Assembly: GCF_000504285.1 (NCBI RefSeq)
Contig: NZ_KI632511.1
Coordinates: 5,252,154 to 5,316,153 of the forward strand
From: Actinospica robiniae DSM 44927
Lineage (GTDB): Bacteria > Actinomycetota > Actinomycetes > Streptomycetales > Catenulisporaceae
Direction of reading: 5' to 3'
Length of the DNA: 64,000 bases
Shown: positions 42,997-48,077 of the stretch, piece after piece
Position numbering within the stretch: position 1 is the stretch's first letter
How the letters are laid out: every line of letters begins with the position of its first letter
Notes under the pieces: generated by a model
Seen by the model: the letters and a program-made list of their open reading frames with translations, nothing else
What the model was told of the DNA's origin: nothing
Databases searched by the model: none
Position numbers and translations under genes: made by a program

Positions 42997-44334
42997 TCAG
43001 TACTGCGGGGGCTGCAGCACCGCCGCCAGCTGCTCGCCCTGCTTGCCCGGCATCATCGTGGCCACCATCGAGCCGTCGGTGAAGTGCAGCTCCGCCCGCG
43101 GCGTACGCCCGTGCTTGAGAGCCTCCTTGCCGCCCTCCAGCCGCACGCCGGCGATCGCCGTGCGCGGTACCGCGTAGACGAGGCGCATGGCGGCTCCGCC
43201 GAGCCGAGCACCACGGAAGACGAGGTAGCGCTGGTTGGTGACGGCCCCGTAGGCGCCGGGACCGTAGTCCTCGGAGGTGGCCCGGATGTAGCGGATGAGC
43301 CAGCCCGCCTGGCTCACCCAGCCGCCGACGAACACCGGCCCGGCCAGCGCCTTGAACATCGCGTCGGTGGCCTTCTCGGCGAGCTTCTCGGAGAGCGCCT
43401 CGCCCGGGGCCACCGCCCACTTGATGCCGCGGTTCATCTTGCCGCTGGCCCGGTTGATGTCGCCGAGCAGGTGGTGCTGGCCCTCGATGGCGATCTTCAG
43501 CTCGTGCGGCGTCTCCTCGATGGTGGAGTCGAGCTTGAGCATGAAGCCGTAGAAGACCTGCTCGCCCGGCTGCAGGAAGGGGCCGGCGCCGGTGAGGAAG
43601 GCGTCGCGCACCTTGGGCAGGTTCGGCGGCGGCGGGAACGAGACCGGCGCGCCGCCGGACTGGTCCATCGGCGGCAGAGTCGCCGAGGACTGGGAGGAGG
43701 AGGGCGAGAACTGCTGCGGGATCTGCGGGGCGGGCGGCTGCTGCGGCTGCGGATACTGCGGCTGCTGTTGCGGCGGGGCCGGCGGGGCCATCGGCGCCTG
43801 GACGGCGCCGGAGCTCTGGCCGAACGGCGGGACGTAAGCCTGCTGCGGCGGGGGCTGCTGCTGGAACTGCGGCTGAGGCTGCTGCTGCTGCTGGGGCGGA
43901 GCGTAGGGCTGCTGCGGCGGGGCGTACTGCTGCGGGTAAGGCTGCTGCGGGTACTGCGGGGGCGGCGGAGCGTACTGCTGCGGAGCCGGGGGCTGCGGCG
44001 GGTAGGGCTGCTGCGGATACTGCGGCTGCGCGTACTGCTGCTGCGCGTACTGCTGCTGCTGTGGGTACGGCTGCTGGGGCATCGGCGGCGGGTACGCGGG
44101 GGCCGGGTACTGCGGCTGCGGGTATTGCTGCGGCGGGTAAGGCTGCTGCGGATACTGCGGCTGCGCATACTGCTGCGGCGGCACGTACTGCTGCTGCGGC
44201 GGCGGGGCGTACTGAGCCGGCGCGCCGTAATGAGGGGCCTGATGGCCTGGCGCCGCGACTGGCTGCTGCGGCGCGTCGACCGGTTCCGGCTCAGGTGTCC
44301 ACTGCTGCGGGAACTGCTGAGCCGACTGGTCCAT
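42997..44334 (-). CDS. Pro/Gln/Tyr-rich low-complexity protein with C-terminal PH-like domain
   Basis: 445 residues in two parts. Residues 1-235 consist almost only of P, Q, Y and A in irregular repeats such as YPQQPYPPQ, QYAQPQYPQQ and QYAPPPPQY; such composition predicts disorder and resembles prion-like or self-associating regions. Residues about 238-445 look folded: KVRDAFLTGAGPFLQPGEQV, then YGAVTNQRYLVFRGARLGG, AIAGVRLEGG and AELHFTDGS, a beta pattern like bacterial PH domains or membrane-associated proteins. No signal peptide. Function unknown. GGTGGGG precedes ATG. An 11-bp inverted repeat lies in its promoter region. Confidence 0.8.
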   Translation of the reverse strand: MDQSAQQFPQQWTPEPEPVDAPQQPVAAPGHQAPHYGAPAQYAPPPQQQYVPPQQYAQPQYPQQPYPPQQYPQPQYPAPAYPPPMPQQPYPQQQQYAQQQYAQPQYPQQPYPPQPPAPQQYAPPPPQYPQQPYPQQYAPPQQPYAPPQQQQQPQPQFQQQPPPQQAYVPPFGQSSGAVQAPMAPPAPPQQQPQYPQPQQPPAPQIPQQFSPSSSQSSATLPPMDQSGGAPVSFPPPPNLPKVRDAFLTGAGPFLQPGEQVFYGFMLKLDSTIEETPHELKIAIEGQHHLLGDINRASGKMNRGIKWAVAPGEALSEKLAEKATDAMFKALAGPVFVGGWVSQAGWLIRYIRATSEDYGPGAYGAVTNQRYLVFRGARLGGAAMRLVYAVPRTAIAGVRLEGGKEALKHGRTPRAELHFTDGSMVATMMPGKQGEQLAAVLQPPQY

Positions 44335-44346
44335 GACCCCACCCGT

Positions 44347-44393
44347 AATCTCTAGACAATGAACTGATTCAAAGCCATCCGAGTCTAGAGATT
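44347..44393. promoter_or_regulatory. 11-bp perfect inverted repeat upstream of the PQY gene
   Basis: AATCTCTAGAC (44347-44357), 25-bp spacer, GTCTAGAGATT (44383-44393), in the 62 bp between the PQY start and the stop of the upstream gene. The spacer holds a TTGAAT-like hexamer on the minus strand and the start-proximal arm contains TAGAGATT, so the arms would flank or cover a promoter. Most likely an operator; less likely an RNA hairpin. Confidence 0.6.
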
Positions 44394-44396
44394 GGA

Positions 44397-45611
44397 CTAC
44401 ATACGGGCAAGGGGGCTGACATGGACCGGATGCTCCGCGTGACTCCGACGGCCGCGACGGCTGTGGCCGCGGCGCCGCTCGGACGGCGTCGGCTCAGCCG
44501 TCGGGACGACGCCGTCGCCCTTGGCCGCGCTCACCGGGATCGGCGCGCTCGGGCCGTCGGGAGCGCCGATGAGCACCATTCCGTCGACGTCGGTGCGCAG
44601 GACCCGGGCGCCGTCCGCGCCGGCCAGGTACACCGTGCGCGGCGAGGGGTGGCCGTACGGGTTGCCCGCGCCCACCGAGATGACGCTGACGCTCGGGTGC
44701 ACCGCCGCGAGGAACGCCGGGTCCTGATTCGCGCTGCCGTGGTGCGGGACCTTGAGTACGTCGGCGGCGAGGTACTGCGCCCGATCCGCCAGCAGGATCT
44801 GCTGTACCGGCGTCTCGATGTCGCCCGTGAGCAGGATCCGCAGCGGGCCCTTGCCGGCCTCGACGGTCAGGGCCATGACGATGGAGGAGTTGTTGGGGCC
44901 CGAGTTCTCGCCCGGTCCGTCCTCGGCCATGCCGCCGCCGGGCCCCGCCATGCCCGGCATGCCGCCCGAGCCCCTGGCGTCGCCGCCTTCCGACGGCGTG
45001 AGCGGATGTCCGGCCTGCGGCCACAGCACCCGCCAGGACAGCGGCCCGATCGTGCGCTGCTCGTCCGGCATCACCCGGGCGACCGGGATCCCGGCGGCCG
45101 CGGCGATCCGGCGCACCTGGTCCGCCCCCGAGGGCGGATCGTCCACCGTCGTGGTCTCGATCGCGCCGACGCTGCGGCCCTTGATCAGTCCCGGCAGGCC
45201 GTCGATGTGGTCGGCGTGGAAGTGGGTGAGGATGACCAGCGGGATCCGGGTGATGCCCAGCCGCGTCGCGCAGGCGTCCTCCTTCGCCGCGTCCGGGCCG
45301 GTGTCCACGGCCACCGCCTCGCCGGGGCCGAGCGCCAGGAAGAGCGCGTCGCCCTGGCCGACGTCGCAGGCGGCCAGGATCCAGGGCGCCGGTGCGCCCG
45401 GCGGCGTGCACTGGCGCAGCAGGAGCACTGTGCCGAGCAGCGTCACCGTCAGCAGGCAGACGAGCGCGATCGTCGAGAATCCGCCCTGCTTTCGGTACCG
45501 GCCTGTCAGCTCCCCTCCGGACGTCAGGCCGCTCGTCCCCGCCGCGCCGCTCGCGCCCTTGGCCGTAGGCCGGTCGTGGGCGCCGCGCGAGCGAACGCGT
45601 GGGTCACCCAT
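44397..45611 (-). CDS. ComEC C-terminal metallo-beta-lactamase domain as a separate protein
   Basis: 404 residues. A charged cytoplasmic N-terminus (about 1-45), one membrane helix (STIALVCLLTVTLLGTVLLL), then an extracytoplasmic metallo-beta-lactamase domain: ACDVGQGDA, LTHFHADHIDG (HxHxDH), LLTGDIE and KVPHHGSAN, with a Gly/Met-rich insertion. These are the motifs of the C-terminal nuclease-like domain of ComEC, which is normally part of one long polypeptide. The gene overlaps the ComEC membrane gene by 8 bp in another frame. A 30-residue Arg/His-rich tail ends the protein. Confidence 0.85.
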   Translation of the reverse strand: MGDPRVRSRGAHDRPTAKGASGAAGTSGLTSGGELTGRYRKQGGFSTIALVCLLTVTLLGTVLLLRQCTPPGAPAPWILAACDVGQGDALFLALGPGEAVAVDTGPDAAKEDACATRLGITRIPLVILTHFHADHIDGLPGLIKGRSVGAIETTTVDDPPSGADQVRRIAAAAGIPVARVMPDEQRTIGPLSWRVLWPQAGHPLTPSEGGDARGSGGMPGMAGPGGGMAEDGPGENSGPNNSSIVMALTVEAGKGPLRILLTGDIETPVQQILLADRAQYLAADVLKVPHHGSANQDPAFLAAVHPSVSVISVGAGNPYGHPSPRTVYLAGADGARVLRTDVDGMVLIGAPDGPSAPIPVSAAKGDGVVPTAEPTPSERRRGHSRRGRRSHAEHPVHVSPLARM

Positions 45612-47136
45612 TCAGATCACCGAGAGGGCCATTGCGTTGCATGGCGCGGCAAAGTTTTACTCCGAGCGCGTAAACGAACAGGAGCGCGAAGCACCCGACC
45701 GCCCCGTTCGGCCACGGCACGGCGGCCCCGGGAATGCCCGCGATCATGCGCGCTACCAGGCAGATCCAGCGGGTGGGCCACTGCGCCAGCCACGCCGCGG
45801 CGGGTCCGGCGGGCGGGAAGAGCGCCTCGGCGGCCATGGCGGCCACGCCGAGCACGGTCGCGGGCGGCGCGGCCGGAACCGCTAGAACGTTCGCAGGCAC
45901 CGAGAGCAGGGGCAGCCGGCCGGTGAAGGTGACCAGCAGCGGCTCGCAGTAGAGCTCCGCGGCCGCCGTGAACGCCGCGGCGGTCGCGATCGGGTTCGGC
46001 ACGCCGCGGATGATCAGGCGGTCGCGCCAAGCCGGCGCGCTGATGAGCAGCCCCGCGGTGGCCGCGACGGACAGGATGAAGCCGTAAGCATTGGCCAGCC
46101 AGGGATCGAGGAGCAGCAGGATCAGCGCCGCGCCCGCCGTGGCGGTCAGCCCGCGGAAGCGCCGTCCGGTCGCCAGCGCGGTGCTGGCGAGCAACGCCGT
46201 CACCGTCGCCCGGACCATCGGCGGCCCGGGCCGGGCCAAGGCGGTGAAGCCGAGCGCGAGCAGCGCGCCGAAGAAGGCGAGAGCGCGGGCGCGCAGCCCG
46301 ATCCGCTTGGCCAGCGGCAGCATCGCCGCGCTCACGAACATCAGGTTCTCCCCGGATACGACCGTCAGAAAGCTCAGCCCGGCGGTCTTGAGGTCTGCGG
46401 CGGTCTGCGGCGGTACGGCCGACGTGTCGCCGAGAGTGAGCGCGGGCAGCACCCCGGCCGGCTCCGGCGGCAGTCCGGCGACCGCTCGGCGCAGATCGGC
46501 GCGCAGCGAGCCGGCGAGGCGCTGCAGCAGGTCCGGGCCGCCGATGATCTGCGGGGCCTGATTCGCCAGGATCGTTGCGGTATCAGGGGAATCCGGGTCG
46601 CGCGGCGTGGCGAGGCGGCCGCTGAGGCGGATGCGCATCGACGGCAGCATCGCGGTCCACGCGGCGGTGTTCTGCGGAACTCGGGCGAAGGCGAGCACAG
46701 TCGCCTTCGCCCGCACTCGGTAGTCGTGGCCTCGATCCCCGTCGCCCGCTTGGGATTGCAGTTCCTCGATGCGGACGGGGATCAGAATCACGTTCTTGAC
46801 GATCTTCGGGTCGCCGGTGACGGTGGCGTCGATCCGGGCATGCGCGCCGGACGCCGCGAGCACCGCGATCGGCCCGCCCCGTACCGCGTCCGCGCGCAGC
46901 GCAGCCGCGGTGGTGAGGACCGCGCCGACCAGCAGCGCCGCTCCGATCGGCAGCAGTACGACAGTGCCCGCATATCGACCCGGCACGCACAGGCAGCCGA
47001 TGCCGGCGACGAAGACCGCGCCGGCCAGCACGTACGCGTCGACGCCGGGGAGGCTCAGCCCGAGCCGGGTGCCGACCAGGCCGGCGCACACAGGAGCCAG
47101 CAGCCGCAGATCGGGGACGTTCTTGCGCGGGCTCAC
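45604..47136 (-). CDS. comEC: ComEC/Rec2 membrane channel part
   Basis: DNA-uptake channel component, 510 residues, with about ten hydrophobic segments, the N-terminal DUF4131-like OB region (about 60-200) and the Competence domain ([32 protein letters not shown] is its hallmark, read in parts). It lacks the C-terminal metallo-beta-lactamase domain, which is encoded by the next gene. GTG start overlaps comEA by GTGA. Either gene fission or a frameshift; see findings. Confidence 0.9.
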
Positions 47137-48077
47137 AGCGCGAGCAAGGGTTCGACGGTCTGGAAGCGAGCGCCGCCGAAACCGCTGACCTGCTGCAGAT
47201 CGTCGACGCTGCGGAAGGGACCGTGCTCGTTGCGGTAGTCGAGGATGCGCTGGGCGAGCGCCGGTCCGATACCCGGCAGCTGTTCGAGGTCTGCCAAGCT
47301 CGCCGAGTTCAGCCGCACCGGCGTGACCACCCCGCCGCCGCGCCCCTTGCCGCCGCGGCCCTGCGGCGCCGCGCCGGACGGATTCGGCGGCGGGCTGACG
47401 CCGACCAGGATCTGCTGGCCGTCGACGAGCACCTGGGCCTGGTTGAGCGTGGTCAGGTCGGTGCCCGGCCGCGCGCCGCCGGCCGCCGTGATCGCGTCGA
47501 TCACCCGCGAGCCGGCCGGCAGCGTCCGCACCCCGGGTCGCGACACCTTTCCCTCCACGTCGACGACGACGCTCGGGCCCGCGTCGGCCCCGCCGGCCGG
47601 CACCGGACCGCCGTCGATCTGCGGGAGCGGCAGCGGCGTCGGCCGGCCCTGCGGCTGCTCGGGGGCGGGCCGGGGCGGCGGCAGCTCGGGCAGCGGAGCC
47701 GCGTCGCCGCTGTCCGTGCCCTGCGCCGCCGGGCGGGTACGTGCGACGGACAGCTCGTGCGGGCGGTCGCGCAGCCAGCTCCAGCCGCCGAGGACGAGCG
47801 CGGCCAGCAGCACGCTGACGGCGAGCACGACGGCGGTGGTGCGGTCCATGCTCCAGCGACCGCGCAGCGTGGCCGGCAGCCGGTCGGCGACGGCGGCCCG
47901 CCACCTCTCGGCCCGCGTCGGCGCGGCCCCGCCGACCTCAACGCCCGCCACGAGCGTCGAGCCGGTGCCCGCACCGCCCGCACCGCTGCCCGTGGCCCCG
48001 GCGCCGTCGCCGGCGGGCGTGGGCGCGAGCAGGGGCTCGGGCGTCGCCCATCGCCAGTGGTTGTCCTGATCCGTCAT
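47133..48077 (-). CDS. comEA: ComEA-type DNA-binding competence protein
   Basis: 314 residues. A cytoplasmic N-terminus with Pro/Gly-rich stretch, one membrane helix ([22 protein letters not shown], about 95-115), a SLBB domain ([20 protein letters not shown] to [15 protein letters not shown]) and a C-terminal helix-hairpin-helix pair ([37 protein letters not shown]) that binds DNA. ATG 48077 is 7 nt after TAGCGT. First gene of comEA-comEC-MBL. Confidence 0.95.

Follow-up and report, generated by a model that had tools for sequence, protein, structure and literature searches.

A gene on the minus strand of the 64,000-nucleotide stretch of Actinospica robiniae DSM 44927 analysed here (the window) encodes a protein in which a low-complexity segment is joined to an ordered one. 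What these two parts are, and what the cell might gain from their combination, is the question raised by this locus. A first-pass annotation had described a prion-like region of irregular repeats rich in Pro, Gln, Tyr and Ala, attached to a PH-like domain, and had proposed a new membrane- or wall-linked condensate protein. The composition bears out the first part of this description: residues 1–230 contain 31.3% Pro, 30.9% Gln, 10.9% Ala and 9.1% Tyr, and these four residues account for 82% of this segment and for 56% of the full-length protein, whose ordered part begins at about residue 236. Residues 1–230 carry no Lys or Arg and five Asp or Glu. The features of the locus are the following.

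42997–44334, minus strand: whole gene, 445 amino acids, ATG start, stop codon at positions 42997–42999
43630–44334, minus strand: P/Q/Y/A-rich tail, residues 1–235, putatively disordered as judged from its composition
43000–43629, minus strand: conserved, predicted folded domain, residues 236–445, made up of a PHb-like core and an insertion
43258–43530, minus strand: 91-residue insertion, residues 269–359, at the β1–β2 junction, with ends uncertain by several residues
44347–44357 and 44383–44393, no strand assigned: arms of an 11-bp perfect inverted repeat just upstream of the start codon

A gene of the Catenulisporaceae

The gene is real, given that its domain is kept in nine of the 60 relatives' genomes (own genome included) and that dN is 0.05 at a dS of 0.98 between two Catenulispora copies (L004 and L005). 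The corresponding values between the two Actinospica copies are 0.13 and 0.34. The domain is under purifying selection, and the tail diverges fast but retains its make-up. In the protein search, the domain is present in two of three Actinospica genomes and in seven of ten Catenulispora genomes, and is absent from the single genome of a third genus of the Catenulisporaceae and from all 46 genomes belonging to other families of the order. The gene is seen in the Catenulisporaceae only (9 of the 14 genomes of the family searched), and its absence from the other five is uncertain, since these are drafts, two of them no more than 81% complete, and in three of the domain matches the contig ends within the tail. 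A profile search across the class, with seven candidates per genome scored among the matches listed, gives hits at E ≤ 0.1 in 8 of 394 genomes. The hit in the window's own genome is the only convincing one; the seven others (E 0.004–0.08) are short stretches. The gene is present as a single copy in its own genome.

Proline-rich stalks are common in wall proteins, and a secreted or wall-linked adhesive protein with such a stalk would account for a tail of this kind. This reading is most improbable, because the protein lacks a signal-peptide-like N-terminus (neither a basic nor a hydrophobic part was found in its sequence), an LPxTG-like end and any TM-like segment (the best 19-residue Kyte–Doolittle mean is 1.24). 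The wall link suggested earlier is not supported, for the same reasons.

A predicted PH-like fold with a long insertion

Searches of Pfam, NCBIfam and PDB sequences return no usable match for the domain, and no enzyme family matches the C-terminal part; a match of this kind was one of the outcomes that the first-pass annotation had named as speaking against its proposal. The closest known proteins are the PHb proteins (PF08000, bPH_1, DUF1696), which include Shew_0819 (PDB id: 3dcx), YozO, YvbH and YjqA of B. subtilis and SCO3793 of S. coelicolor. PF08000 is absent from the Pfam matches at E ≤ 10 in all nine family members; as the Pfam profile test failed, the domain is called PHb-like here and is not filed as a member of PF08000.

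AlphaFold models built from five sequences are weak for both the window protein (mean pLDDT 50, pTM 0.47) and its C. rubra orthologue (mean pLDDT 55, pTM 0.52). Both are predicted to consist of an N-terminal helix, one strand, the long insertion, six strands and a C-terminal helix, which is the PH order. The insertion is modelled with very low confidence, as helices in both cases, with two short strands also in the C. rubra model. Foldseek finds 3dcx as the best match of the window model (E 3.7e-3, with none at or below 1e-3) and GRK2 (PDB id: 7k7z) as that of the C. rubra model (E 7.4e-4, with 3dcx at 1.6e-3), so that a single E value lies below 1e-3 across the searches with both models. VIA places 3dcx first for the window model (Z 8.4, rmsd 3.6, 102 aligned), tied with other PH domains, and for the C. 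rubra model (Z 7.2, rmsd 3.5, 100 aligned), again tied with others, and notes itself that a Z of 7–8 can be background. The top structural match is 3dcx in three of the four lists, the exception being Foldseek on the C. rubra model. Most of the listed neighbours are named as PH, DH/PH or GLUE domains or are proteins that carry them; 8qsz_H, from an RNA polymerase II complex, is a listed neighbour of the C. rubra model without a PH-type domain.

At the sequence level, a cut of 85–97 residues was slid along the nine domain sequences, which were aligned locally with one same-order PHb protein, from a genus that we take to be Streptomyces. In eight of the nine copies the best cut has one and the same position and a length of 91 residues; in the A. 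durhamensis copy it is 97 residues long. Shuffle controls with equal cut freedom (200 each) were run for three of the nine copies. The Catenulispora copies L004 and L005 score 66 and 67 (shuffle maxima 48 and 46), and the window copy scores 44, a value reached by 6 of its 200 shuffles. A wider test compared six of the nine sequences with 30 PF08000 proteins and with 60 unrelated 118-residue pieces of other proteins of the window. For the Catenulispora copies L003, L005, L007 and L009, the PF08000 maxima are 73, 75, 75 and 67 against control maxima of 44, 43, 48 and 48, and 16–18 of the 30 PF08000 proteins exceed the control maximum. The window copy reaches 62 against 48, with three of 30 above the control maximum, and the A. 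durhamensis copy 56 against 52, with one of 30. Free-end global alignments with PHb proteins are significant in all three pairs for L005, and in none of six pairs of the two Actinospica copies with same-order PHb proteins. Averaged over nine copies and five PHb proteins, the global score is 30.3, whereas the best of 200 column shuffles reaches 20.0, and hhalign of the cut profile gives 22.4, above all 100 column shuffles (maximum 20.4), over 16 columns and with a probability of 11%. Given the 91-residue cut, homology with PF08000 proteins is clear for the four Catenulispora copies and marginal for the two Actinospica copies; the claim of PHb likeness is extended to the window copy because orthologue domains share 64–67% identity.

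Three residues, E258, T366 and R369, are invariant in all nine copies and align with Glu31, Thr47 and Arg50 of PHb (PHb1, numbers carried over by spacing). These form a buried triad that is expected by the authors of the structural work to matter for structural integrity (PMC2817789). The binding face of PHb, according to the same paper, includes Asp42, Asp55, Glu80, Asp86, Asp88 and Glu90. Glu90 is aligned with the invariant E415; Glu80 falls on the invariant E400 only when residues are counted without gaps from the proline that is aligned, outside the alignment made by the program; and Asp42 would correspond to D269, provided that the insertion begins behind this residue. In our reading of the alignment, Asp55, Asp86 and Asp88 have no acidic counterpart, and a ring therefore cannot be assumed. 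Eukaryotic-type PH domains that bind lipids have a basic pocket for phosphoinositides; the present core, counted without the insertion, contains 14 Lys and Arg and 7 Asp and Glu. With the insertion set aside, the domain has in common with PHb proteins a PH topology, as predicted by the weak models, and the buried triad with its corresponding spacing, and it differs from them in the insertion of about 91 residues, in the aromatic tail of about 235 residues, in some acids of the binding face and in lying below detection by the Pfam model.

The PH-like assignment made earlier for the C-terminal part is in agreement with the two weak models, the fold searches and the alignment to PF08000 with the 91 residues removed, which support a divergent PHb-like (PF08000-related) PH domain carrying the insertion at its β1–β2 junction. 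It is highly unlikely that the folded part has another or a new fold, with its PH matches being chance resemblances of weak models. The low pLDDT and pTM, the single Foldseek E value below 1e-3 and the lack of a family-model match would be expected in that case, but the topology is the same in both models, PH domains are present in most of the structural neighbours listed, and the alignment to PF08000 proteins, with the cut in an unchanged position, scores above shuffles as well as above unrelated pieces.

Other candidate matches were tried and dropped. Considering how many models and sequences were tried, BP74_N at E 0.2 and PHROG 27635 (four of nine members, best E 0.0037, 26–28 residues inside the insertion) both lie close to chance. 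The bPH_3 family (PF14470) is found in 20 of the 60 relatives and in none of 14 Catenulisporaceae; 12 of these 20 places lie inside PF08000 matches, the other 8 are in genomes outside the PF08000 searches, and all 20 look alike. The hhalign probability of the family alignment against them is 4%, and with the insertion cut 2 of 50 column shuffles lie above 18.6, so not all shuffles are beaten.

Many bacteria have PHb domains, whose physiological function was not understood (PMC2817789). Of 296 genomes of the class, 41 encode canonical PF08000 proteins, as do 5 of 21 genomes of the nearest relatives and none of the 13 Catenulisporaceae genomes searched; in this family, the tailed form may take the place of the canonical PHb protein. 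Among the 43 PF08000 matches in the class, the 30 inspected (L075–L104) have no insertion of such size and no upstream open frame averaging more than 25% P/Q/Y/W (an average over stop-to-stop frames, in which a short rich stretch could hide), and the remaining 13 each span no more than about 130 codons.

A tail of spaced aromatic residues

In the DNA of the tail, TRF detects a degenerate tandem repeat (15-bp period, 69% matches) with irregular units. Tyr recurs about once per five residues, and exactly five residues separate Tyr/Phe neighbours in 9 of 24 cases. Amyloid-type prion domains are typically Q/N-rich and proline-poor. With 31% Pro and a longest proline-free stretch of 12 residues (within residues 1–225), amyloid formation by the tail is unlikely, and the earlier prion-like label does not hold in the amyloid sense.

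Six complete tails (from the window, A. durhamensis and four Catenulispora genomes) were compared with their last ten residues left off. They are 203–298 residues long and contain 20–26 aromatics, at most two Lys and Arg and 2–7 Asp and Glu; in the window tail, 232 residues were scored and contain 26 aromatics, five Asp or Glu and neither Lys nor Arg. In none of the six do two aromatics lie within three residues of each other, and this is not due to chance, as no more than 3 of the 2000 shuffles of any one tail match it. In the four Catenulispora tails, none of 2000 shuffles reaches the evenness of spacing (CV2); in the two Actinospica tails 105 and 80 of 2000 do, and the evenness there lacks significance. 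By eye, the tails of the two genera are unlike in sequence: those of Actinospica contain 8–9% Tyr and one Trp each, those of Catenulispora 4–6% Trp and 3–6% Tyr, often in APAWQQPA-type units. Aromatic number, minimum spacing and low charge are kept in this swap while the remaining tail sequence changes. Repeat expansion alone could be the source of the aromatic spacing, and a hint of selection comes from the pattern being kept across differing repeat units. With many spaced aromatics in nearly uncharged spacers, the tail fits the sticker–spacer description.

A search with the tail in its own genome, in which 150 of the 265 candidates were scored, returns only itself. The triple-QPY pattern, absent from this genome in a search of 41 genomes, is present in 18 of the 41, compared to two for a read-backwards control. 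Examination of 20 of the 30 triple-QPY loci (L045–L074), one per gene, places the pattern in one frame in 19 of them (probably the wrong frame in L060); one locus belongs to the tailed PHb-like family and one is cut by a contig end. A TM-like segment is carried by 10 of the 20 loci, unlike the tailed PHb-like protein, and Pfam assigns a family to six of ten loci. QPY-rich tails recur beside the folded parts of unrelated, often membrane-bound proteins of the order, such as DUF4190/Septum_form, VTT and CDP-alcohol phosphatidyltransferase proteins. As similar P/Q/Y tails are found on many unrelated proteins, the tail type is ordinary and need not condense. The novelty attributed to the protein is hence smaller than originally stated: the tail type is common and the domain type known (PMC2817789), and what is new is the lineage-restricted combination of PHb-like domain, insertion and tail. 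None of the papers listed in the literature searches deals with this protein or with PHb proteins that carry a tail.

A possible scaffold and its alternatives

We tentatively favour a cytoplasmic scaffold of the Catenulisporaceae in which a PHb-like ring carries sticker–spacer tails. The solved PHb domains are C5 or C12 rings, for whose base a protein-binding role was suggested (PMC2817789); by analogy, the domain may assemble into a ring. Several tails would then radiate from one hub, each presenting 20–26 spaced Tyr or Trp in nearly uncharged Pro/Gln spacers, and weak aromatic contacts, both between tails and between tail and partner, would create a multivalent particle able to cluster. Such clustering might take place near the membrane: relatives of PHb were recovered with membrane or insoluble fractions, although a direct binding to the membrane is contested by the authors of that work (PMC2817789). 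The scaffold is favoured because a multi-tail hub would be strongly multivalent and because there is a precedent in an engineered system, where fusion of the Tyr-bearing FUS IDR to a multivalent protein lowers the phase-separation threshold 8-fold, an effect that depends on the number of tyrosines and not on their position (PMC5704491). In both cases tyrosines are distributed across a low-complexity IDR, with multivalence being presumed here. The motifs of FUS are Gly/Ser-Tyr-Gly/Ser, and the tailed protein has Pro/Gln spacers with 31% Pro. Ring formation, condensation, membrane contact and a partner are all inferred for the tailed protein.

It is also quite possible that the PHb-like domain does the work and that the tail is a passive spacer or bristle, generated by repeat slippage in GC-rich DNA, with the aromatic spacing as a by-product. 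The degenerate tandem repeat, the recurrence of triple-QPY on DUF4190, VTT and CDP-alcohol phosphatidyltransferase proteins, the dissimilar tail sequences of the two genera and the 4–5% of shuffles that reach the evenness of the Actinospica tails are all consistent with this explanation, but tail length, low charge and aromatic number persist in all six tails despite their differing repeat units. The stronger proposition that condensation itself is under selection, with a ring-forming hub and a natural replacement of Tyr in Actinospica by largely Trp in Catenulispora, would build on this persistence and is rather unlikely. A further explanation is decidedly unlikely, namely that the protein is nucleoid-associated or associated with a protein complex and that it replaces, in the Catenulisporaceae, the canonical PHb protein of the order, represented by SCO3793. 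The canonical protein is indeed absent from the 13 Catenulisporaceae genomes searched and present in some of the nearest relatives, and SCO3793, mentioned also in PMC13033682, is among the candidate nucleoid proteins of S. coelicolor (PMC3784963). However, the latter paper only names SCO3793 as a candidate of unknown function, the tail carries no positive charge, and the orthology of the same-order PF08000 loci to SCO3793 is presumed.

The large insertion and the sticker-type tail provide a handle on PHb domains. Should the tails cluster the proposed ring, PHb domains would turn into modules for building scaffolds, with rules of assembly that can be tested, and the exchange of Tyr for Trp from one sister genus to the other would amount to a test, made by nature, of sticker–spacer rules in bacteria. 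The interest of the scaffold is modest and would grow if the swap proves functional.

Neighbouring genes and the upstream inverted repeat

The gene sits between a prolyl-oligopeptidase-family gene (PF02897/PF00326, 40749–42926) and a metallo-β-lactamase ORF, beyond which lie a ComEC-type (PF03772) gene and a ComEA-like (SLBB, HHH) gene. The comEC side of the A. durhamensis locus looks alike by sequence, and the contig ends just past the gene. In the two of seven Catenulispora genomes inspected, the orthologue is located elsewhere and follows a same-strand ORF (L022:9743–10492 and L023:6667–7344), which we take to be acetate-transporter-like. An operon link with ptrB or comEC as an explanation is rejected, as the neighbour ORF is a different one in L022 and L023. 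The earlier remark that the neighbours, ptrB and the competence genes, do not explain the gene therefore stands: with the gene lying elsewhere in the two Catenulispora stretches inspected, its neighbours do not define its function.

The arms of the inverted repeat, AATCTCTAGAC and GTCTAGAGATT, are located between the tailed gene and the upstream metallo-β-lactamase ORF and contain both TCTAGA sites of the whole 64-kb window. The A. durhamensis sequence retains 10 of the 11 bases of the gene-distal arm, TCTAGA among them, and 9 of the 11 bases of the gene-proximal arm, where TCTAGA is lost. The distal arm overlaps TAGACT, which is −10-like. A scan for promoters and terminators came back empty; judged from its sequence, the repeat is a possible promoter or operator candidate, whose TCTAGA core presumably recalls the DasR site of Streptomyces. 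On the far side of the repeat, the metallo-β-lactamase part (44397–45611) and the ComEC membrane part (45604–47904) are separate ORFs with an 8-bp overlap, and in A. durhamensis (L018) the two parts are likewise separate overlapping ORFs.
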